DNA of 64,000 nucleotides from Nitrosospira sp. Nsp2 (lineage in GTDB: Bacteria; Pseudomonadota; Gammaproteobacteria; Burkholderiales; Nitrosomonadaceae). Under the pieces are notes generated by a model. That model was not told the origin of the DNA and searched no databases. It saw nothing but the letters and a program-made list of their open reading frames with translations. Made by a program: the position numbers and the translations under genes. The DNA lies in contig NZ_QAOU01000010.1 in the NCBI RefSeq assembly GCF_003050965.1, positions 1-64,000 on the forward strand, written 5' to 3'. Positions 23,442-59,814 of this stretch are shown in pieces. Every line of letters begins with the position of its first letter. Position 1 is the stretch's first letter.

Positions 23442-24575
23442 TTACTTCACGCGTTTACGACGTCCTGCAACGCCCAGCCCCATCAGGCCCAGGCCGACGA
23501 GGGACAGCGTGCCAGGTATGGGAATCTGTCCGCCGGGCCCATTGTCGTTCCCAAGGTTAATAGTCAGCAGCCCGATATCAGTCAACGATCCATCGGAGGC
23601 CTGCACTTGTGCGACGTACGTTCCTACCGCCGAGCCTGTTGAATTCCACACGAACTGCTGAGTAGCGGAATTGAAGGTTGGCGCGTTGATACCTCCCCCC
23701 AGGAAACCAACGAAACTCCAGGTTAAACCTCCGGGAGGATTGGGATTGCCATCATCCGTGGCGGTGAACTGGAAGTTGATGGTGTCGCCTACCAACGCAT
23801 TGATGACCATGTCCGACACAACTGGAGCGAGGTTGCCGCTGCCCGTATTGACCGCGTCAAACAGCCAGTCAAATTCCACGCTACTGCCGTCGCTCGAATT
23901 GATGTGGCCGCTGAAGGCATAATCAGCGCCGATGTTTCCATCGGCGTTGTCCGGATATGTCGCAGTATTGGCTGCAGAGATGAATAACTGACCGGTAACG
24001 GGATCAATGGTGAAACCTGGCGGTTGGGTCGGAATGCCATTCAAAATCTGGTCGTAGCTTAACGTCAAGCCGGGACCTGCGACCGCGCCCAGGTTGCCCG
24101 AATAGTCGCTTCCCCGAACGACCTCAGGCTGAACCGCACTAAAGTTGAAGAGAATGGGCGTGTTCGCGCTGGTACCGTTCCACACAATCGTGGAATTCAT
24201 CGTCCAACTGGTAGAACTGTTGCTGCCGGGCCAGTTAGCAATGCCATCAACACGGCAGCAACTGTTGCCTGTGATGCTAAAAGTCCCGCCGCCGGACAGC
24301 TGGAACGTATCGACATTTGTTACCTTGGTAAAACGAACGTCGGATGTATCGATTACGCTCGATGCGCGACTAACAAGGCTCGCCCCACCTACGTTTGACG
24401 CGACGCTGCTTACTGAAGTCGGCCGCCAAAAGCTCGTGGTTGTAACCGTTAGTTTCCCGTCTGAGTCAACGGAAGGAATCATTGCCGCGCCTCGAAAATG
24501 CGACGCGTCCGCCATCCCACCGCTGAACGCTGCGATGACCCCCGCAGCGATTGCTGTGTGTTTCAAATTTTTCAT
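23442..24575 (-). CDS. PEP-CTERM exported protein with Ig/cadherin-like domain
   Basis: This 377-residue protein has a signal peptide (first 24 residues, ending GGMADA). The middle region resembles putative-Ig/cadherin-like repeats (VGTYVAQVQASDGSLTDIG near residue 320). The C-terminal sorting tail is IPIPGTLSLVGLGLMGLGVA followed by Arg-Arg-Lys-Arg. The tail is a PEP-CTERM variant in which the Pro-Glu-Pro is Pro-Ile-Pro. Exosortase would cleave and transfer it to the surface; no exosortase gene is in the window. GAGGAAAT lies immediately upstream of the ATG. Confidence 0.88.
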   Translation of the reverse strand: MKNLKHTAIAAGVIAAFSGGMADASHFRGAAMIPSVDSDGKLTVTTTSFWRPTSVSSVASNVGGASLVSRASSVIDTSDVRFTKVTNVDTFQLSGGGTFSITGNSCCRVDGIANWPGSNSSTSWTMNSTIVWNGTSANTPILFNFSAVQPEVVRGSDYSGNLGAVAGPGLTLSYDQILNGIPTQPPGFTIDPVTGQLFISAANTATYPDNADGNIGADYAFSGHINSSDGSSVEFDWLFDAVNTGSGNLAPVVSDMVINALVGDTINFQFTATDDGNPNPPGGLTWSFVGFLGGGINAPTFNSATQQFVWNSTGSAVGTYVAQVQASDGSLTDIGLLTINLGNDNGPGGQIPIPGTLSLVGLGLMGLGVAGRRKRVK

Positions 24576-37513: not shown

Positions 37514-37936
37514 ATGAGGGGCTCATCTCCAGGCAGGTTGATGACGCGATACGTCATACTGGGCATAATTTCTTTCATGATAAGCGGTGTCACTTCTGCT
37601 CAGATCATCATAGCGGAACAGCAGAGCGATTCCGCACCATGGCTGCTTGATAAAACCGCCAAGCCAATGCCGGGTGAAAAAGATGAGGCCAAAACCCCGG
37701 AGCGCATGCCGGCAGAAAAGAGTTCTTCTACTAGCGCCGGACAGGAAGTATCTGCCGACTCAAGCTCTTCGTCGGGCTGGCTACCACCAAGCCAAGGCTA
37801 TGGCTCATGCAGGCACTCCGCGCCAGATCAGGAGGATTTTTTTTGCACGCTCGGAAGAATTCTGTTTGGATCGACCCCGTCTGGTCCAAACAGGGACGTG
37901 GACGAAAATATCTCCGCCGGAGGTGCCGGCGGTTGA
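37514..37936 (+). CDS. Exported protein with NISAGG tail, copy 1
   Basis: This 140-residue protein has an N-terminal hydrophobic segment (about residues 11-30, ending GVTSAQ, a signal peptide or anchor). A Ser/Glu/Pro-rich disordered middle follows, then a conserved end: FFCTLGRILFGSTPSGP, then RDVDENISAGGAGG at the very C-terminus. GGGGGAAAATATC precedes the ATG; codon 10 is an alternative start. The same end pattern recurs in the next gene. I recognise no family. The fixed Gly-rich C-terminus on a variable body resembles a sorted or processed peptide, which is inference only. Confidence 0.65.
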   Translation: MRGSSPGRLMTRYVILGIISFMISGVTSAQIIIAEQQSDSAPWLLDKTAKPMPGEKDEAKTPERMPAEKSSSTSAGQEVSADSSSSSGWLPPSQGYGSCRHSAPDQEDFFCTLGRILFGSTPSGPNRDVDENISAGGAGG

Positions 37937-38002
37937 TTTTTTCCTGAGCGACAAATTGATTGCGCCAATCCGCAAACCGTAGGATGAACAGAAAGGGTTA
38001 TT

Positions 38003-38401
38003 TTGGGAAAACCGGCAGCGTGTGTCAGGATACTTGCCCAAATTATATTGTTGGGCCTCGTGAGCGTCCTGCATGCAGGCGTCTCTATCGCCGGACATGA
38101 TACCGCCCAATCGCCCACGCATGCCCCTCAGCTGAATAGTTCCGCCCCGCAGGCGAACGACGAAAATCAACGCAAACATTCACCCTGCTCAGAAAGCGAT
38201 GCTCCTACCGTGGAGGAGTCAGGCGTCCGGGGTTCCCAGGATCGGTCGCCGTCGGCACGGCGTTGTTTGTGCCGGCCCGTAATACCCTCCAAGGAAAGCC
38301 TTCCGGATAAACTTTTCCGGATCTTTTTCGGTCCCGACTGGTGTGGCCCCGACCCTAATGTGGATACAAATATCTCCGCTGGGGGGGCCGCCGGAGGTTG
38401 A
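38003..38401 (+). CDS. Exported protein with NISAGG tail, copy 2
   Basis: This 132-residue paralogue of the gene 66 bases upstream appears to start at TTG, eight bases after AAAGGG. A hydrophobic signal segment (about residues 10-30), a disordered polar middle and the shared end LFRIFFGP-DWCGPDPNVDTN followed by ISAGGAAGG are visible. Copies 1 and 2 agree mainly in the last 30 residues (L-x-R-I-x-F-G ... G-P ... V-D-x-N-I-S-A-G-G-A). Two Cys occur in the RRCLCRP block. The function is unknown. Confidence 0.6.
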   Translation: MGKPAACVRILAQIILLGLVSVLHAGVSIAGHDTAQSPTHAPQLNSSAPQANDENQRKHSPCSESDAPTVEESGVRGSQDRSPSARRCLCRPVIPSKESLPDKLFRIFFGPDWCGPDPNVDTNISAGGAAGG

Positions 38402-38792: not shown

Positions 38793-40439
38793 ATGAAACG
38801 TAATAAACCGTTAATGATGCTGTCCGGCTGCCTGCTTTCGGCGTCTCTGTGTGCCGAGGATAAACCGGTGCCACCCCCGGCTCCTGAAGCTCGCTCATCC
38901 AGAGCCTCCTATGTCATCGATCTCTACGTTGACACCAAAACAAAGCAGATTTACGCCGAACCGGGTGAAGGCCGCGTGCGCATGAGATCATTTGAAAAGG
39001 TAGCGGATGTACCTGGAAAAACAGCACCCACATCCGATGCAATCGCACCGGCCGATTCCCCGGCGGCCGCGACCGAGGTGGCCACGGCAATCAAGCCAGG
39101 GGAAAAGCCAAAGCAGGTTCCTCCAAACCCCGAAGGAATGGGCTACGCGAACTGGAAATCTCCTGATCCATTTAAATGGAACCTGAATGGCGACGGTAGT
39201 CAATATCTGAAGTTTGGATTTCTGAATCAGGTTTGGCTGCGATATGAGCAAAATAACCCGGGATCAAGCGTGATGGGGGAACCGGTAGACGACACGCAGG
39301 ACATCGGACTCCGTAGGACCCGTTTCGTATTGCAAGGACAGCTTACCGACCGCGTATATTTTTATACTCAATACGGTATGAATAACTTTAACTTTCTGTC
39401 TCAAAACGGAAGCAGTTCCAATAGCGGTATTGATGATCTCGGCAACAGAAAGATCCAGGCCTTCTTTCACGACGCTTTTGGCGAACTGCGACTTACGAAA
39501 GGTCACCAGATGGTCGTAGGAGGCGGTCTGGTCATGGCTAATGGCATGTCCCGCTTCAGCAGCCCAAGCGTTAGCACAATCATGACGATGGACATTCCCC
39601 TGTTTGCACAAGCAACTGCCGATCGCACCGATTTGTTCAACAGAAGCTTAAGCGTGTATCTGAGGGGCCAGATAGGCATGTTCAACTATCGGTTCACCGC
39701 CAGCGATCCTTTCCCGGTAAACACCGATGGGGTGGCGCTTGAGCCAATTTCGCTGGATCATGCCCAATTTGCCCGGACCGGGCATCGCAAACGTTACCAG
39801 GGGTTTTACGTATTGAACTTCTGGGACACGGAACCGATGACAAATCCGTATTGGCAAGGAACCTATCTGGGTAAAAAAAGCATCCTGAATCTCGAGGGTG
39901 GGTTCATTTCGCAAAAAAACGCCACCTGGACGGGCGCAACGGAAGCCACCGCTCAATTTCACGACATGAATCTATGGTCCGTAGCTGCCTATCTCGACGC
40001 GCCGGTGGACAAGGTAAAGGAAACCGCCATCTCTGCCTATATTGGCTATTTCAACACGAACTACGGGCCCAATTATTTGCGCACCAATGGAATCGGCATG
40101 ACGCCGGCTACTGGCGGAAACTCGCTCAATGGCGGGGGCAACGCCTTCCCGATGTTCGGGACGGGCGATATCTGGTACGGACAAATAGGTTATTTAATGT
40201 CCAGGGATTTGCTAGGCAGTAATAACGGACAGTTAATGCCCTACTTTTCGTTCACAAGCGCAAATTTTCAGCGGCTGCGCGACCAGATGAACGTGTTCAA
40301 CGTGGGTGTGAACTGGCTTATAAAAGGACACAATAGTAAGGTTACCTTTGATTATCAAAACCGGCCGGTATTCAACACCGGGGGAAATAAAATCGCTAAT
40401 CGCGGTCAGTTCGTTTTGCAATACCAGATAGCCTTCTAG
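38793..40439 (+). CDS. Outer-membrane porin-like beta-barrel protein
   Basis: This 548-residue protein has a signal peptide of about 21 residues and a Pro/Ala-rich periplasmic segment (about residues 25-115). The barrel is built of alternating aromatic strands such as YLKFGFLNQVWLRYE and DRVYFYTQYGMNNFNF, and it ends in QYQIAF. A terminal Phe is the usual BAM signal. It resembles DcaP/phosphate-selective-porin-like barrels, and the solute is unknown. GGGAGG lies well placed before the ATG. It stands alone, with a long AT-rich leader. Confidence 0.82.
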   Translation: MKRNKPLMMLSGCLLSASLCAEDKPVPPPAPEARSSRASYVIDLYVDTKTKQIYAEPGEGRVRMRSFEKVADVPGKTAPTSDAIAPADSPAAATEVATAIKPGEKPKQVPPNPEGMGYANWKSPDPFKWNLNGDGSQYLKFGFLNQVWLRYEQNNPGSSVMGEPVDDTQDIGLRRTRFVLQGQLTDRVYFYTQYGMNNFNFLSQNGSSSNSGIDDLGNRKIQAFFHDAFGELRLTKGHQMVVGGGLVMANGMSRFSSPSVSTIMTMDIPLFAQATADRTDLFNRSLSVYLRGQIGMFNYRFTASDPFPVNTDGVALEPISLDHAQFARTGHRKRYQGFYVLNFWDTEPMTNPYWQGTYLGKKSILNLEGGFISQKNATWTGATEATAQFHDMNLWSVAAYLDAPVDKVKETAISAYIGYFNTNYGPNYLRTNGIGMTPATGGNSLNGGGNAFPMFGTGDIWYGQIGYLMSRDLLGSNNGQLMPYFSFTSANFQRLRDQMNVFNVGVNWLIKGHNSKVTFDYQNRPVFNTGGNKIANRGQFVLQYQIAF

Positions 40440-42946: not shown

Positions 42947-44578
42947 ATGGTCACAAGCGCCGCATCCCGACCGGACGGTACCATGGATAACGATCCGATT
43001 ACGCCCCTGACGACTATCTCGCAAGACTGTAGGAACCGATTGAAAAACACGCGCGTGGCGGTAATTGGGGCCGGGCTGGGCGGGCTCATGGCCGCCCTGC
43101 GGCTCAGCCAGCATGGCGTCAAAGTGACGTTATACGAGGCACATCCTCAGGTGGGCGGCCGCGTTCGCAGCAATGCACGGTTTGCCAACGGGCGCATTAT
43201 CGAGGAGGGCGCCGAATTGATCGGCTCGTTTCACACCGCGTGGCTGAAACTGGCCCAGAAGTATGGCATCGCGATGATCAACCGGATGGGGGACCTTGAG
43301 TACGAGCGAGAACGCCTGAATTTGAAACTACGGCTGGATAATACGAAGGACCTGACCTGGGCAGAAATCCATCAGCTCAATAAAGATGTTGATCAGGTGT
43401 TAAAGTCGATTGCCGATAACGCGGCAAAGTGGATCGTCCAAGAGACCTGCCCCTGGAACGAAACCAACCCAGTCGTGCTGAATATCCTGAAGAATTACGA
43501 CAACACGACGGTAAGAGACGCGCTGATTAACCTGCACAAGGTCAACCCGAATAATCCAAAACAGCAGCGCCTATGGAAGATGTTGGAGTTAAGACTTGTC
43601 AACGATGAAGTCTCTCAGCTGGAAGAAATGAACTACCTGGGTCTGCTGTTAAAGGTGAAGGGTGGGCAGAGCGAGCGGTTCGAAATCGATGATCCCGGGC
43701 GGATGGGGTATTGGGACGAGCTGGAGATTTTTCGCTGCGCGGATGGTTGCCAGCGTTTGGCGGATGAGATGGCCAGTGAGATCCGGAAAAACCGAGGCGC
43801 TTTGATGCTGAAAACAGCGGTAACGCAGATCGAAATTCATCCGCAGGATGTGCAGCTGACGACACGATCGGTGGCTTGGCCGAGTGGGAAATTGAGCAGC
43901 GCAGGCAAAACGGCGCGTTTTCAATACGTAGTGCTGGCGGTCCCGCCTAGCGTCTGGAGCGACGTAACGATCCAGGACAACGGTAGCGCAGTTGATCTCA
44001 AGGCGGAGATTGGCGTAATGGGACGAGGCCCGGCGGTGAAGTTCTTCAGCAGCTTTAAGAGACGGTTCTGGATTACGGAAAAGATCCCCTCCGCCCCGAG
44101 CGGGGGGACACTGAAGCTGGGTCAGATTTGGGAAGGCACCGACAACCAAATGCAGACCGGCCGCCAGGGCATCGTGCTGAACATCTTTGCCGGGCCCACG
44201 CTGCCCGGCTCAGGGAAAGGTGGGCCCCGTCCGCCCACCGAGCTGGAAATGCAGAAAGAGCTGAAAGATCTCTATCCCAGCTATTCTAGAAATCTGAACA
44301 AGACGTACTACAGCGACTGGCCGAACGAGCCCTTCATTAAGACCGGTTACTGGGCGCCAAAGGCAAACGGCGAGATCTTCAAGGTCGGCCCGAAACTCAA
44401 CGTTGCGTTCCATAAGCGGCTGTACTTCGCTGGGGAACACACATATGTTTCCTTTTTTGGCTACATGGAAGGTGCGCTGCGGTCGGGCATCCGCGCGGCG
44501 AACCTGCTGATGCGCGAATCATGTGGGATGACCGTAGATCCTTGTCCGCCGCCTCCGCCTGAGGAGAAGATAGCATAG
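42947..44578 (+). CDS. FAD-dependent amine oxidase
   Basis: This 543-residue flavoprotein belongs to the monoamine/L-amino-acid oxidase superfamily. An unusual 25-residue lead precedes the Rossmann motif VAVIGAGLGGLMAALRL (about residue 36), followed by VGGRVRS (about residue 66) and EEGAELIGSFH. The C-terminal FAD motif is LYFAGEHTYVSFFGYMEGA. It has no signal peptide. Members oxidise amines or amino acids with O2, giving H2O2. It lies 285 bases upstream of the 1045-residue gene in the same direction and downstream of a LodA-like fossil, so this locus has been associated with amino-acid oxidases more than once. Confidence 0.88.
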   Translation: MVTSAASRPDGTMDNDPITPLTTISQDCRNRLKNTRVAVIGAGLGGLMAALRLSQHGVKVTLYEAHPQVGGRVRSNARFANGRIIEEGAELIGSFHTAWLKLAQKYGIAMINRMGDLEYERERLNLKLRLDNTKDLTWAEIHQLNKDVDQVLKSIADNAAKWIVQETCPWNETNPVVLNILKNYDNTTVRDALINLHKVNPNNPKQQRLWKMLELRLVNDEVSQLEEMNYLGLLLKVKGGQSERFEIDDPGRMGYWDELEIFRCADGCQRLADEMASEIRKNRGALMLKTAVTQIEIHPQDVQLTTRSVAWPSGKLSSAGKTARFQYVVLAVPPSVWSDVTIQDNGSAVDLKAEIGVMGRGPAVKFFSSFKRRFWITEKIPSAPSGGTLKLGQIWEGTDNQMQTGRQGIVLNIFAGPTLPGSGKGGPRPPTELEMQKELKDLYPSYSRNLNKTYYSDWPNEPFIKTGYWAPKANGEIFKVGPKLNVAFHKRLYFAGEHTYVSFFGYMEGALRSGIRAANLLMRESCGMTVDPCPPPPPEEKIA

Positions 44579-44863: not shown

Positions 44864-47800
44864 ATGAGTCTGGAATCGTTGTTTCGGTTTACACTGATAC
44901 GGCCTGCGGTTGCACAAGATCCAGCCAATCCCAGCATTGACCTAACCCAGGATTCACCATTTCAAAAATCCCTCGCTGATGCGGCCAAGGCCGAGCAACC
45001 CCGTCAATCGCTCTTGCGCGTCGCGCGCGCCTTCGTAACGGGGGAGGACTTCATCGGCAATCCCAACACAAATGCACTAGCCAAGCAGTTGACCGGATTT
45101 GCTGTAGCACTCGACCAATTCGAAGATGATCAGACTGTGTCTCACGAGAACGTGGTGGATGCCGTAGAGGAGGCGTTCGGGGCAAGGCCGGAGTCTTTGG
45201 TGCAGGGTCCGGAGTTCAACGCGTCCATGCAGAATTTGCGAGATAGTCTTCTCGCGATCAAGCAGTTGCAAGAGGAGCATGGGCGCCCGATTGAATCGCT
45301 CACCAACCAGCTCAGGGATATCGAATTGATATTGAAGGTAGCTGAAGATGAGACTTTTCCAGCTACGCCAGACGAACTCCGCCGGTACCGGCGGCGCTCC
45401 CTTAAGCTACCGGTGGTGTTCAATCTCGAATCCGTCCTATCAACATCCCTATTGGAAGAGGAACGACGGAAAAAAAAGGCGGAGGCGGAGGCTGAACGCC
45501 AGAAGTATGCCAAAGGCCTCTTTGATCAGTACCGGGGACTGAAGCAGGCGATAAGCGAACTGACAGGTCTGGGTGGACAACATTTTCAGGTCATGCCCCA
45601 GCAGCCGCATGCTGGAGTCACCATTCCTGAAGAACTCAATCCGACAAGTGTATTAACCCGTCGGATAGAATACCTTGGAAAATTATCCGACGCGAACCTC
45701 AGGCAGTTCCAGTCAATGCTGGAACAAGGCGAGGAAATCCGTCCTCTGCGCGCCGAGAGCGCTGCGGTTGCGAATTCGGCAGCAGAACTGGCGAAAAACC
45801 TCTTGGTCGTCGGTCCCCAGCTGCTAAACGGAAGCCCGCCGTCCCGTCCGGCTGCACTAAGCGAGGTCAGCTTCCGTCTCAAGGCCAGCGCCGTAGAGGT
45901 GCTATCTGAACCCACCAGGAAACTGCTGAATGAGCGGAATGTCGGTCTATCGGATCAATCGTTGGATCGCATCGTCGAATTGCTCGAAGCCGAAACTGAC
46001 ACTACCGGAAAGAAACTCGATGCCCTTTATAGCCATTCCATAAGGCGCAGTATCAAGCGTATCGGCGATACCCTGGTAACCATTAACGAGCCGCTGACTT
46101 CCGAATGGCCGAGCGCGGCTGACGAGCCGGCGCTTCCCTCTCTCCCGCCTTTGCCGTCGGCGGAGCAGATTCCCCACACCCGCGGTACCGTTGCCCCAGC
46201 AGGCGTTGCGGACCTGCTTATAGTAAAGCAACAGCTTACGGGGTACGAAGCTGCTGATGTTGCGCACATCGAAAATGTACTGAAGGGGGAACTGAAGCAT
46301 CGCGAGCATACTCGCCGACGGGAGACTGAAGAGTTTACGTTTCGCGAGACGGAGGTAATTTCTTCGGAGGAGCGTGAGCTCGAGTCAACTGATCGCTTCG
46401 AGATGACGAGGGAGACCAATACCACTATTCAGGAAGACGCGTCGCTGAAGGCCGGCCTAAACATATCGGGCAAATATGGTCCGTTTGTCGAGTTCTCAGC
46501 CAGCGTGGAGGGATCTACCTCACGCTCGAAAGAGGAGGCGACGAGGACTGCGTCCACATTCTCGAAGGAGGTCACGCAGCGGAGTGCCAGCAAAATCACC
46601 GAAAGAGTTCTTGAGCGAGCCTCCCTTCGGGTGACAAATGAAGTGATAGAGAAGAACCTGCACGAGCTAACCAACGTGGATGGGTCAGGTCATATTTCGG
46701 GAGTCTACCAGTGGGTGAACAAGGTATACCAGGCCCAGGTATTTAACTATGGCCTGCGAACAATATTCGATTTCATGGTACCTGAGCCAGCTGCTTTTCT
46801 TATCGATGCGCTGAACTCAGCCAACGAGAGCGCGAACGAGCTCCAGAAGCCGCCGGAATTTACTTTGAAGCCCAACCAGGTTACGGACAACGTTGCGTCA
46901 CAGGGTTACTATGGCAGATGGGTGCAAGTATATGGTGCGACGGACGTGACACCGCCTCCAGAGATGTACAAGACGAAATCACTCGACTTTCACGCGGGAG
47001 GTGGCGATGCCGCGACGAACTATCACCACTCCGCACAGATCATGATCGAGGACGGTTACAAGGCCGTTCACGGCTCGGTTGGAGCCGTGAATATGATGTG
47101 GAATAACACTTGCATCATCGATGTTGTGTTGGGGAAGAAATTTCACCGCTTTGCCAATATTAGCGGGGAGGTCTTCTCTACTCCCTTGGACGAGGAAAGA
47201 GACTCCATCCCATTCGCGCTCGTTACATTCAGTATTCCCCACCTTGCCGTAGCTGTAGAAGTAAAGTGTCAGCGAACCGATCGGGCCATGGAGAATTGGC
47301 GAATCGAGACGCACGCTAAACTGACCGCTGCCTACAAGGCCCGCCTGGCCGAGTACGAGGAAAAGCTCGCCGCTTTGGAGCTTCAGCAGGGGGTCGCGAT
47401 TCGGGGCAAAAATCCTGCCCTCAATCTTCAGACCATGAACAATGAACTGAAGAAGAATTGCATCAGCATCCTGACCGATCAGCATTACGACTTGTTCAAC
47501 GCAATTGATCTTTCAGCGAGTAATAGCTTACCTCAGATTGATGTGCCCGAAGCGGAGGCCGAAGGTCCCTACGTGCGCTTCTTTGAACAGGCATTCGAGT
47601 GGGAGCAGATGACGTGGGTTACCTACCCATATTTCTGGGGCAGAAAAAGCCGGTGGAACGAACGGCTGGCCTTCGAGGATCCGGACCCCCTATTCAACCA
47701 GTTCTTGACGGCTGGGTTCTGCCGGGTGTCCGTTCCTGCTCGGCCAGGTTTCGAAGGAGCAATCGATCATTTTATAACTTACGGGGAGATATGGAATGGC

Positions 47801-48001
47801 GGGCCGCTTCCCCCTATTAGTAGTCCGCTCTATCTACCCATTGCAGATGAAATTGCTGAGCGACTAGACAAACCTGGGGATGAGGTTCCGCAAGGGGACC
47901 CGTGGCTGGTTCGGATTCCAACCACACTCGTACATTTACGCGCAGATGACCAACTGCCAAAGTGGCAGCAGGATTCGAATGGCAACTGGGTGGAGGCGTA
48001 A
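44864..48001 (+). CDS. 1045-residue protein of unknown function
   Basis: GGAG at nine bases before the ATG supports the start. Residues 1-200 are helical. A charged coiled-coil run EEERRKKKAEAEAERQKYAK is near residue 200-220. A Pro-rich linker (about 420-440) leads to a core with ADLLIVKQQLTGYEAADVAH, a dense Glu/Arg/Thr helix (EEFTFRETEVISSEERELES), then KAGLNISGKYGPFVEF and a Ser/Thr/Glu-rich helix. The C-terminal quarter is aromatic (WVTYPYFWGRKSRW) and ends SSPLYLPIADEI. There is no signal peptide or membrane helix. I have the impression that the core motifs recur in uncharacterised large proteins of other bacteria, but I cannot confirm this. It may be a structural or assembly protein; the function is unknown. 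Confidence 0.85.
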   Translation: MSLESLFRFTLIRPAVAQDPANPSIDLTQDSPFQKSLADAAKAEQPRQSLLRVARAFVTGEDFIGNPNTNALAKQLTGFAVALDQFEDDQTVSHENVVDAVEEAFGARPESLVQGPEFNASMQNLRDSLLAIKQLQEEHGRPIESLTNQLRDIELILKVAEDETFPATPDELRRYRRRSLKLPVVFNLESVLSTSLLEEERRKKKAEAEAERQKYAKGLFDQYRGLKQAISELTGLGGQHFQVMPQQPHAGVTIPEELNPTSVLTRRIEYLGKLSDANLRQFQSMLEQGEEIRPLRAESAAVANSAAELAKNLLVVGPQLLNGSPPSRPAALSEVSFRLKASAVEVLSEPTRKLLNERNVGLSDQSLDRIVELLEAETDTTGKKLDALYSHSIRRSIKRIGDTLVTINEPLTSEWPSAADEPALPSLPPLPSAEQIPHTRGTVAPAGVADLLIVKQQLTGYEAADVAHIENVLKGELKHREHTRRRETEEFTFRETEVISSEERELESTDRFEMTRETNTTIQEDASLKAGLNISGKYGPFVEFSASVEGSTSRSKEEATRTASTFSKEVTQRSASKITERVLERASLRVTNEVIEKNLHELTNVDGSGHISGVYQWVNKVYQAQVFNYGLRTIFDFMVPEPAAFLIDALNSANESANELQKPPEFTLKPNQVTDNVASQGYYGRWVQVYGATDVTPPPEMYKTKSLDFHAGGGDAATNYHHSAQIMIEDGYKAVHGSVGAVNMMWNNTCIIDVVLGKKFHRFANISGEVFSTPLDEERDSIPFALVTFSIPHLAVAVEVKCQRTDRAMENWRIETHAKLTAAYKARLAEYEEKLAALELQQGVAIRGKNPALNLQTMNNELKKNCISILTDQHYDLFNAIDLSASNSLPQIDVPEAEAEGPYVRFFEQAFEWEQMTWVTYPYFWGRKSRWNERLAFEDPDPLFNQFLTAGFCRVSVPARPGFEGAIDHFITYGEIWNGGPLPPISSPLYLPIADEIAERLDKPGDEVPQGDPWLVRIPTTLVHLRADDQLPKWQQDSNGNWVEA

Positions 48002-50632: not shown

Positions 50633-51763
50633 TCACAGCAGGGGACGCTGCTCCAAGCTGAAGGCACTCATCTTCTTTCGTCGTACCATAAATCCCATCA
50701 GGCCCAGCCCAGCAAGAAATAGCGCATAGATCTCCGGCTCAGGAACAACCCCCAGGGCAAGCACTTGCCCCGCGTTATTGATGTCTAGGGCCAAAGTTAA
50801 AAAAACGCCCTGGGGCAGGCTAACCATAGCATTTAGGTCCATAATGTTCGAGCCATCAGGACCAGTGATAAAAGCACGGGCATGTTCCCCGGACAGGGAT
50901 GACTCTCCCACGACTTGCCCGGCGTCGTTGATGCCATATGCTCGACTGTAATTACCGCCTAAAGTGCCAAGGTCTCTCATATCCATCCCATTTGCACCGG
51001 TGATAAAAGCATGCAAAGCGCCGCCTGACGTTAGCGACTCTCCCACGACTTGGCCGACATCGTTGATGCCACGGGCAAAGCCGTAGTCGTCACCTAAAGT
51101 CCCAAGATCCCTCATGCCCCCACCACCGGGGTCAGTGATGAAAGGATGCTCATGGCTCCCGGGGAGGGGAGACACGCCGACGGCTTGGCCAGCATTGTTT
51201 ATGCCATACGCTTGGCTGTAACTACCGCCTAAAGTGCCAAGGTCCTTAATACCCTCCCCATTATTGCCAGTGATGAAAGCATGCTGAGCGCGCGCCGATG
51301 TTGACCCCCACCCGACTACCTGCCCCGCGTTATTGATGCCGGTAGCGCCACCAGAGCCCCCCCCCAAATCAGCCAAGTCCCTCATGCCTGCGCCATCGGG
51401 ACCAGTGATGAAGCCGCGGACATCACCTGAAGCTGTCTCAGACCATCCTGTCACTTGCCCCACGTTGTTGATCCCAATTGCTGTACTGCTATTCCCTCCC
51501 AAGGTGCCCAAGTCCCTCATCCCCGCGCCATGGGGGCCAGTAATGAAAGCATGACTATAGCTCCCGGCGAAGGGCGACGCTCCCACCACTTGGCTGGCAT
51601 CGTTGATGCCATTGGCCCCTTCTATCTGGGTTACAACCTTGCTGTTGAGGTCAACCAAAAACGACCGCTCTTGTGCAGCAGCATGAGTTGTAAAACTGAG
51701 CCCGGCGATCAGGATTGCACCGGTGATAAAGTTGCGAAGTTTGGAGCTTTGGATTATTTTCAT
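50633..51763 (-). CDS. PEP-CTERM protein with HAF repeats
   Basis: This 376-residue protein has a signal peptide (first 30 residues, ending THAAA). About six tandem HAF repeats of 45-50 residues follow, with consensus GINNAGQVVG...HAFITGP-G-GMRDLGTLGG. The sorting tail VPEPEIYALFLAGLGLMGFM plus Arg-Arg-Lys-Lys is followed by a further 12 residues. HAF repeats are thought to form extracellular beta-propeller-like folds. Exosortase sorting to the surface is inferred. It converges with the deacetylase gene. A related fragment lies at 48129-48581. Confidence 0.88.
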   Translation of the reverse strand: MKIIQSSKLRNFITGAILIAGLSFTTHAAAQERSFLVDLNSKVVTQIEGANGINDASQVVGASPFAGSYSHAFITGPHGAGMRDLGTLGGNSSTAIGINNVGQVTGWSETASGDVRGFITGPDGAGMRDLADLGGGSGGATGINNAGQVVGWGSTSARAQHAFITGNNGEGIKDLGTLGGSYSQAYGINNAGQAVGVSPLPGSHEHPFITDPGGGGMRDLGTLGDDYGFARGINDVGQVVGESLTSGGALHAFITGANGMDMRDLGTLGGNYSRAYGINDAGQVVGESSLSGEHARAFITGPDGSNIMDLNAMVSLPQGVFLTLALDINNAGQVLALGVVPEPEIYALFLAGLGLMGFMVRRKKMSAFSLEQRPLL

Positions 51764-55846: not shown

Positions 55847-56641
55847 TCAGACTGCGCCCATCTTCTTCCGGCGCTGGACGACCGCACCCATGAGCCCCAG
55901 CCCGGCCAAGAGCATTGCATATGACTCGGGCTCGGGCACTGCTACAACAGCCCCATGGGCGGACGCGTTGAAACCGACGCTGAGTGACCCCGTTCCGGCA
56001 TCGCTGGCGACGATACCGAATACCAGATTTCCGGCTCGCGAGGTTGAAGACAAGTCTCCATAACTATCTATGGAGAATGAAGCACTGGAACTGGAGTTTG
56101 AGGACCCCCCGTTTGTAGAACTGTAGAAGTTTGCACTTCCGTTTACGAAGGCAGTATCAGAATAGCAGCAAACAGAAGTGATTCCTGTCAGGCTGATGGT
56201 GTAAGGAACGCTGAAAGTTAACATGCCGGGACCGTCAAAAGAGAATCCCACCGACCGAGTCCCCGAGGAGCTTACGACACTTCCTGTTTCCACAGCACTG
56301 GCCGTTCCGGAAAAGATCTCAGAAGAGGCAAGGCCATTTGCAAGCGAAGCTCCCGCACTAGTATTTGTATGCGCAGTGCTCGTCCAGTCATTTCGCGTGA
56401 CCGAGTGGCTCTCGTTTCCCCCTGCAGAGGTGCTGGAAGAGCTAAGCGAGGTGTTGTAATTGGAAAAAACAACCGTTCGCACCGTAGCGGTAACGCCCGT
56501 AACCGAAAGTTGCAGTTTGCTCCAATCAATCGTGGCGGTGGCAGTAACCGGGGTTAGGTTCTCTACAGCTTGCGCGGCCTGGCTTAACCCTAACCCGATT
56601 GAGCCCAGAGCTACTACCAAACCTTGACTAAACTTATTCAT
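55847..56641 (-). CDS. Ser-rich PEP-CTERM exported protein
   Basis: This 264-residue protein has a signal peptide (ending AAQAV), a long Ser/Thr/Gly-rich, probably beta-rich body, and the sorting tail VPEPESYAMLLAGLGLMGAV followed by Arg-Arg-Lys-Lys. Two adjacent Cys occur in SVCCYS. I chose the ATG two codons in, because GAGGAAG lies about eight bases before it and only two bases before the first ATG. Sorting by an exosortase is inferred. Confidence 0.85.
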   Translation of the reverse strand: MNKFSQGLVVALGSIGLGLSQAAQAVENLTPVTATATIDWSKLQLSVTGVTATVRTVVFSNYNTSLSSSSTSAGGNESHSVTRNDWTSTAHTNTSAGASLANGLASSEIFSGTASAVETGSVVSSSGTRSVGFSFDGPGMLTFSVPYTISLTGITSVCCYSDTAFVNGSANFYSSTNGGSSNSSSSASFSIDSYGDLSSTSRAGNLVFGIVASDAGTGSLSVGFNASAHGAVVAVPEPESYAMLLAGLGLMGAVVQRRKKMGAV

Positions 56642-57401
56642 ATACATCTTCCTCTATTTGTATTGTTGTCTCAGCACATGCTGAGCCGCCACACTAGAGG
56701 ATTATTTGGGGAGAGAACCCAAGTAGAGACGGGGTTTTGCTATGTTGTTTTAGGTAAACAAATAGGAGTCGAAGTCTTATATTTTTTGTTTTTACTTTGA
56801 AGCCGGGGATTAGTCCTTATGCCGGACGTGTCTGTAGCTCGGTCCCGTAAGATCAGATATTCACCAAGGGGTCCCGATGACTTAGGTACCCTCCCCTCTT
56901 ACCTTTCCCAAATTTTGCAAAAAAATTTTTGTGCGATGTTAGGCAGAGGGACTAGGCGATCTGAAGATACGTCGTCAGACATTGCTTCATTCTCGCGGCA
57001 ATAGTCTCCAGGGTAACGCTGGAGTGACGGATACTACTGGACGATTAGTGGGGATTCTTTGCGCAGGAATGCCTCTAGAAAGGGCTCACGGAAGGTTCGG
57101 AGCGCATAAACCAGTGAGGGTATATCCTAGGTAGGGTACGAGTCATTTACGGGCTCTGAGTTGGGCAGTTCCGGTACAGGAATGCCTCAAATCGTGGCGC
57201 TGCATCGTTATCAACGCACGATCTCTTCACGGCAATATCCCAGGTAGGGTGGAAAGATTTTATTGGCTTAATAAAGCCTTCGGGGGTGGGGTTCTGACCG
57301 GGGGGGTTATTTGTCGGCAGGCGGGGGGTGCCGTTTGGGGACCCAACGCCTAGCCTTTCGTAAGTACTCCGAATTCCAATCGGAATTCATGGAGTGCCGC
57401 G
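56642..57401. repeat. Degenerate repeat field, left part
   Basis: No gene is visible in these 760 bases. Two imperfect units of about 85-90 bases lie at about 57068-57155 and 57180-57262. They share AATGCCTC near the start and TATCC(C/T)AGGTAGGGT near the end. The block TTAATAAAGCC...GGGGGTGGGG near 57268-57300 has a counterpart on the other side of the next gene. Confidence 0.6.
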
Positions 57402-58938: not shown

Positions 58939-59814
58939 TTACGCACATTTCCTTGCGCGGCGCGCCCTCCAACCAAGAAGACTTAGTCCTGCCAGCATCA
59001 TAGCCCAAGTTTCCGGCTCTGGAACGGCCGGAAGCACCGGAAGAAAGGTTCCAGCTTCTTGCGTGTAGTATCGAAATTGGACACTGCCTTGGTCTATAAA
59101 TGCCGTATCCGCCCCATTAAATGTGAAGCTGCCACTATAAGGCTGTCCGTCGAAGGTAACCACGTTTGGGAGGCTAACAGACGAGGCGGGATTACTACTG
59201 ATGCTAACCGTTGCGTCTTCTTGCGAGAACGGGAAGACATTTGGAGGCGTAGGCAGGTTCGTACTTTTATCTACCGTAAGAAAGGTGCTGCTGTCGCCGC
59301 CATACAAAGTGTAGTTTAGGGTCCAGGCGGAAATTTGACCGCTCGCATCGGTTGTCACTTGCCCGTCAACTGCGCTGTAGTGATCGTACTTCACGGCATC
59401 TGCAGAAGACCCTGCCACGTAGTTGTTTATATCATTCGATATAGGGACTATAGAACCGCCAGCCCAATAGCCCTCCACTCCCCCCTTAGTTGCGCCGAGG
59501 AGATTAAACCCACCGCTTTCCAAATGGATTGGAGTGGTGGAATTTGGCGCAAGAGGCGACGTGAAGCTTAGGTAAGCAGTTATCGGTGACCCGATATAGA
59601 TCGGGGGGCTAGTCAAAGGGCTATTAGGGGATTGCAGCAAGCCGGGTGTGGTTTGGACCTCATTTTTCCCCGAATTTTGTAACTCCCCTAGGTAAACGGG
59701 GGCGCTTGTAAAATTGTAGGTAGTGCTGGCCTGCGCGGAAAGAGAACCGATCAATGTTCCAACTATCACCAAGAACGTCCGACAGGTATTATTAGAAATA
59801 TTAGTCAAGCTCAT
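58939..59814 (-). CDS. PEP-CTERM exported protein
   Basis: This 291-residue protein has a signal peptide (cleavage near LSAQA, residue 29), a beta-rich body with no recognised domain, and the sorting tail VPEPETWAMMLAGLSLLGW followed by Arg-Ala-Arg-Arg-Ala-Arg-Lys. AGGAGTAGGTGAT precedes the ATG. It is probably an exosortase substrate of unknown role, facing away from the SRAP gene. Confidence 0.87.
   Translation of the reverse strand: MSLTNISNNTCRTFLVIVGTLIGSLSAQASTTYNFTSAPVYLGELQNSGKNEVQTTPGLLQSPNSPLTSPPIYIGSPITAYLSFTSPLAPNSTTPIHLESGGFNLLGATKGGVEGYWAGGSIVPISNDINNYVAGSSADAVKYDHYSAVDGQVTTDASGQISAWTLNYTLYGGDSSTFLTVDKSTNLPTPPNVFPFSQEDATVSISSNPASSVSLPNVVTFDGQPYSGSFTFNGADTAFIDQGSVQFRYYTQEAGTFLPVLPAVPEPETWAMMLAGLSLLGWRARRARKCA

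Follow-up and report, generated by a model that had tools for sequence, protein, structure and literature searches.

GlyGly-CTERM, PEP-CTERM and LPXTG signals combine a motif with a membrane helix and a basic end, and the proteins that carry them are usually homologous in the tail region alone; GlyGly-CTERM is paired with rhombosortase and PEP-CTERM with exosortase (Haft and Varghese 2011, PMC3237569). In Caulobacter, the secreted outer-membrane regulator YjbI needs its C-terminal tail to function at that membrane (PMC12864828). Here we describe two adjacent genes, A and B, in a window of 64,000 nucleotides (the whole stretch of Nitrosospira sp. Nsp2 DNA that was analysed), which encode exported proteins ending in a conserved glycine-rich tail and are followed by a gene for a porin.

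A and B resemble GlyGly-CTERM and PEP-CTERM proteins in having a conserved C-terminal region (glycine-containing in GlyGly-CTERM), signal peptides, divergent bodies, and a co-distributed partner gene of the kind that adjoins its targets when these are few. They differ in that i) GlyGly-CTERM and PEP-CTERM tails have three parts, a motif, a transmembrane helix and a basic cluster, whereas the A/B motif is the very end of the protein; ii) GlyGly-CTERM and PEP-CTERM carriers are otherwise non-homologous, whereas the A/B carriers are two paralogues; and iii) the partner is a protease in the known systems but a porin here. No co-distributed intramembrane protease or transpeptidase could be found in the conserved neighborhood of A and B. 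Class IIb microcins and similar short secreted peptides combine a conserved Gly/Ser-rich C-terminus with double-glycine leaders; A and B have instead Sec-type signal peptides, and no immunity or modification genes nearby. YjbI is like A and B in being exported, in its cysteine pairs, and in a C-terminal tail that is functional in YjbI and conserved in A and B, but it is a folded pentapeptide-repeat beta-helix with a charged membrane-crossing tail, whereas A and B are disordered and their tail is glycine-rich (PMC12864828); we claim no homology, the two being unrelated by the tests made.

The A/B gene pair

The features of the pair, all on the forward strand, are as follows.

37514..37936, +, gene A, exported protein of 140 residues (ATG start; sequence)
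37514..37600, +, signal peptide of A (MRGSS...SGVTSA, with predicted cleavage before the following Q; hydrophobic core)
37805..37933, +, C-terminal homology region of A (SC...DQEDFFC..GRILFG...GPNRDVDENISAGGAGG), with a short helix at residues 109-118 (profile match, pN/pS, alignment, low-confidence AlphaFold)
37886..37933, +, the 16 residues at the end of A, under stronger constraint than any other window in the protein (pN/pS 0.13, rank 1 of 120 windows)
37914..37943, +, terminator-like G+C hairpin CCGCCGG-AGGTG-CCGGCGG with T run, overlapping the last codons and stop of A (sequence, folding)
38003..38401, +, gene B, exported protein of 132 residues with a TTG start (intact orthologues in 20 Nitrosospira genomes)
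38003..38092, +, signal peptide of B, of predicted extent (hydrophobic core)
38270..38398, +, C-terminal homology region of B (...RIFFGPDWCGPDPNVDTNISAGGAAGG; profile match; last 16 residues pN/pS 0.07)

The first-pass annotation, made from the letters of the window, had described two adjacent exported reading frames with disordered bodies and the same tail, and both are indeed found there (37514-37936 and 38003-38401, +). The bodies are rich in A/S/P/G/Q, and both proteins stop exactly at the glycine-rich tail, whose common pattern FG..GP..VDxNISAGGAxGG ends at the stop codon in A and in B. Judged by sequence, both are exported by signal peptides: all A orthologues have a hydrophobic core (at least 9 of 12 residues) followed by a conserved A-Q/HAQ site, and the AlphaFold model of A places a helix at residues 7-25, coincident with the signal peptide, the protein being otherwise disordered except for helix 109-118 (low confidence). 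A purine-rich ribosome-binding site lies immediately 5′ of the TTG start of B. Possible non-canonical start codons were also seen elsewhere, in three orthologues of A or B (L040:6515-6898 (+), L044:6129-6512 (+) and L053:6381-6815 (-)) which have ATA or ATT where other species have ATG, and good ribosome-binding sites.

Neither A nor B has a Pfam match, and a search of NCBIfam yields LpqS alone (E 0.05, below its cut-off). The two proteins are 32% identical to each other and follow the same plan of signal peptide, disordered linker, helix and tail; in a tree they form two separate groups divided by one branch with support of 96/94. We conclude from these comparisons that A and B are ancient paralogues rather than unrelated proteins, and the split into two supported groups implies that the duplication predates the radiation of the genus Nitrosospira. 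The earlier impression of different bodies sharing only a tail calls for a minor correction: identities are densest over the last 30 residues, but the bodies are paralogous and built to a common plan, and they look different because the linker diverges fast.

Distribution of the pair

Protein searches recovered A and B in tandem from most genomes of the same genus and from no other genus. Close relatives of the host genome include Nitrosospira sp. Nsp14 and Nitrosovibrio sp. Nv4. Within the genus, a tail profile of 45 positions recovers the pair at E values of 1e-17 to 1e-28, a conservation well above anything expected by chance, and is positive in 21 of 23 Nitrosospira genomes, one decayed copy included; A orthologues are present in 20 (counting one decayed and one cut by a contig end), and intact B orthologues likewise in 20 of the 23. 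The tail proposed from the letters of the window is therefore not unique to this pair, having orthologues across Nitrosospira, nor does it occur inside longer folded proteins. With the same profile we were unable to find it in any other genus of the family (125 family genomes searched, Nitrosospira included), in the rest of the order (399 genomes), or in the rest of the class (369 genomes). Weak matches in Nitrosomonas were rejected because they overlap a stretch whose peptide resembles a translated tRNA, as was a weak match in the host genome itself, which is antisense to a RimM-like reading frame. Phages, plasmids and viral contigs gave no tail match at all, and an origin of A and B from any of these was rejected accordingly. 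Nor could any description of the pair be found in the literature on Nitrosospira porins, proteomes or PEP-CTERM. We conclude that A and B are a new, undescribed family of two paralogues restricted to Nitrosospira.

Conservation of the tail

An alignment of 36 tails (17 A and 19 B) gives the consensus SC....PxQExFLCKxxRIxYGPDxxxGPNRDMDENISAGGAGG for A and ..KIxRxFxGPDxPPGPNPDVDTNISAGGA(G/A)GG for B; copies end in GGAGG, GGAGGG or GGAAGG, and the decayed copy in GGAGD. The only strongly conserved part of either protein is the last 16 residues or so, where pN/pS is 0.13 in A and 0.07 in B, compared with medians of 0.65 (A) and 0.76 (B), values of 0.65-0.77 elsewhere in the proteins, and 0.235 (A) and 0.435 (B) for the lowest window clear of the tail. 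Synonymous sites in the tail diverge as much as those elsewhere (pS about 0.70), and since they are free to change, selection must act on the peptide and not on the DNA. Constraint rises gradually through the helix, with no sharp border at the tail. A back-translated NISAGG-like motif has 2 matches in the 3.46 Mb host genome, namely A and B, and a reversed-pattern control has none. The proposal that a fixed C-terminus is a functional signature is borne out to the extent that constraint is confirmed at the protein level; its further reading as a sorting tag or processing signal is unsupported, for reasons given below.

Co-inheritance with a porin

Inspection of the neighbors, which had been recommended in the expectation of a shared processing enzyme, turned up a porin as the conserved and co-lost gene.

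38793..40439, +, module porin of 548 residues, the co-inherited partner gene (weak match to porin ExtI; co-occurrence with B)
38910..39002, +, conserved N-terminal segment of the porin (YVIDLYVDTKTKQIYAEPGEGRVRM..FEKV), a candidate docking site (invariant columns)

Specifically, i) intact B and a full-length porin occur together in exactly the same 20 of 23 Nitrosospira genomes, a count made inside one genus, so that the carriers are not phylogenetically independent; ii) both are missing from 2 of the 23 (G016 and G018), and the empty site in G018 reads pgm-gnd-zwf-carbonic anhydrase ... leuA, without the three module genes; iii) in the remaining genome (G001) A, B and porin are all broken, A by an in-frame stop and a change of the terminal Gly to Asp, B by a deletion that removes the tail and extends into the porin, which is a remnant; and iv) nearly all carriers retain A, B and porin in this order on one strand, and the flanking genes vary. 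B and porin are retained without A in one genome (G017), and in another (G015) about 10 kb separate B from the porin downstream. Five genomes have porin paralogues elsewhere, with no further A/B copy by the tail profile. Decayed A, B and porin were noted in Nitrosospira sp. Nsp14 (L035:5500-6500). We conclude that A, B and porin form a real, new, genus-restricted three-gene module.

The porin is laid out as a conserved N-terminal segment (IDLYVDTKTKQIYAEPGEGRVRMGSFEKV), a P/A-rich linker and a strand-rich barrel region. It resembles Porin_O_P (PF07396) and ExtI-type (NF040900) proteins in its strand-rich layout of about 550 residues and in its weak profile matches (Porin_O_P is weakly matched by 2 of 14 porin orthologues, and the porin of the host genome has no Pfam match), but its score against ExtI, 47.6 bits, is far below the curated cut-off of 150, and it carries an N-terminal segment that is common to other porin-length reading frames across the family Nitrosomonadaceae. 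The plasmid matches of the barrel are reading frames of Bacteroidota (Haliscomenobacter and Persicobacter) at about 30% identity, and the porin looks composite, a Nitrosomonadaceae-type N-terminal segment joined to a barrel that matches Bacteroidota. We could find no solved relative of the porin, and its AlphaFold model (mean pLDDT 37.7) is too poor for a binding groove to be sought.

The other conserved neighbors of the pair are PEP-CTERM carbonic anhydrases, a TPR protein, sugar-phosphate enzymes and cox2. An alpha carbonic anhydrase is the upstream neighbor of the module in most relatives, sometimes with a second one 3′ of the porin; all 3 of those tested have a PEP-CTERM signal (L037:4334-5248, L037:8945-9892 and L038:7144-8067; one stretch with pgm, gnd and zwf) and are probably processed by exosortase. 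As a partner of the pair the carbonic anhydrase was rejected: it is not module-specific, since both module-less genomes carry one and the two copies of the host genome are on other contigs. Elsewhere in the window we noted, by eye, PEP-CTERM-like C-terminal ends in the reading frames at 23442-24575, 50633-51763, 55847-56647 and 58939-59814, and, following the gene of a flavin amine oxidase (42947-44578), a reading frame of 1045 residues (44864-48001) that matches nothing in Pfam or NCBIfam.

That the pair is inherited and lost with one porin suggests docking to this porin, and not general sorting, as the role of the tail. Our leading reading, which we hold tentatively, is that A and B may well be secreted accessory partners of the downstream porin, docked to it by the C-terminal tail. 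A and B would be Sec-exported, intrinsically disordered proteins. Once their signal peptides are cleaved off, they would stay behind as flexible tethers, either periplasmic or at the outer membrane, with the disordered body as tether or spacer. The C-terminal unit, comprising a short amphipathic helix, a GPD..P.GPN turn and a free end DxDxNISAGGAGG, could then act as a linear docking motif that binds the porin, whether inside the lumen or at the N-terminal segment; docking would gate the porin, anchor something to it or aid its assembly. A narrower and doubtful version is that of a gated or plugged porin, in which the free glycine tail of this dedicated, disordered secreted pair would enter or cap the channel; as an exported carbonic anhydrase is usually encoded alongside, such gating might be tied to inorganic-carbon or ion supply.

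Alternative explanations

A and B could be precursors of secreted peptides, in which the body is a spacer, the C-terminal 15-45 residues are cut off as a signal, coat or antagonistic peptide, and the porin is the passage or receptor. Many precursors likewise join a signal peptide to a variable spacer and a conserved C-terminus, the two cysteines of A (before and in the helix) are kept in 17 of 17 sequences, and the porin could serve as a route through the outer membrane; but no cleavage site is conserved ahead of the tail, constraint increases gradually along the helix instead of setting off a peptide by a sharp border, and the conserved neighborhood, as inspected, contains no protease, modifying enzyme, transporter or immunity gene beside the pair, nor the modification or leader-cleavage enzyme by which a RiPP precursor would be recognized. 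We regard a precursor peptide, which the first-pass annotation had also considered, as unlikely. Somewhat less probable still, the tail could be structural or metal-binding, the D-x-D-x-N loop and glycine arm mediating for example a self-assembly of A with B that depends on Ca2+, and the porin being no more than co-regulated. Loop positions 1, 3 and 5 are kept as D/E/N, D/E and N in 36 of 36 sequences, and A and B are retained as a pair in almost all carriers. EF-hand and dockerin loops have Gly at position 6 and an acidic residue at position 12, however, and the A/B loop has neither; metal binding would also leave unexplained both the conserved last Gly residues and the loss of the porin with the pair.

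A C-terminal sorting or processing tag read by an envelope enzyme yet to be named, as originally proposed, would account for the strongly conserved, glycine-rich extreme C-terminus of exported proteins, but it is improbable given that the carriers in any genome are two paralogous bodies only, that the tail has neither a hydrophobic helix nor a basic end, and that no such enzyme is encoded in the conserved neighborhood of the pair. We think it very improbable that the tail is an N-glycosylation site (D/E-x-N-x-S/T) read by a PglB/STT3 oligosaccharyltransferase. Although the extended bacterial sequon fits 35 of 36 tails and is the sole such sequon in each protein, it is disrupted in one A copy (DDNVA), STT3 (PF02516) matches none of the 23 Nitrosospira genomes in a search where archaeal controls were positive, and conservation of AGGAGG would be left unexplained. 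Least credible of all is that the tail is conserved through DNA or RNA, as a terminator hairpin or repeat element with the peptide as a by-product: the end of A in the host genome does form a perfect CCGCCGG/CCGGCGG hairpin with a T run, but folding of all orthologous gene ends showed this terminator-like structure to be absent or different in relatives, no Rfam match was obtained, and synonymous tail positions vary freely. We reject this explanation, which the free synonymous change and the unshared hairpin contradict.

Implications

The hosts of the A-B-porin module are soil ammonia-oxidising bacteria, which carry out the first step of nitrification. The protein family found in them is undescribed; a single element of it is sharply conserved, and its partner gene can be named. 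The tail of A and B is short enough to be used in tests as a synthetic peptide. Should it dock as we suggest, this porin would have secreted partner proteins of its own, which is rare.
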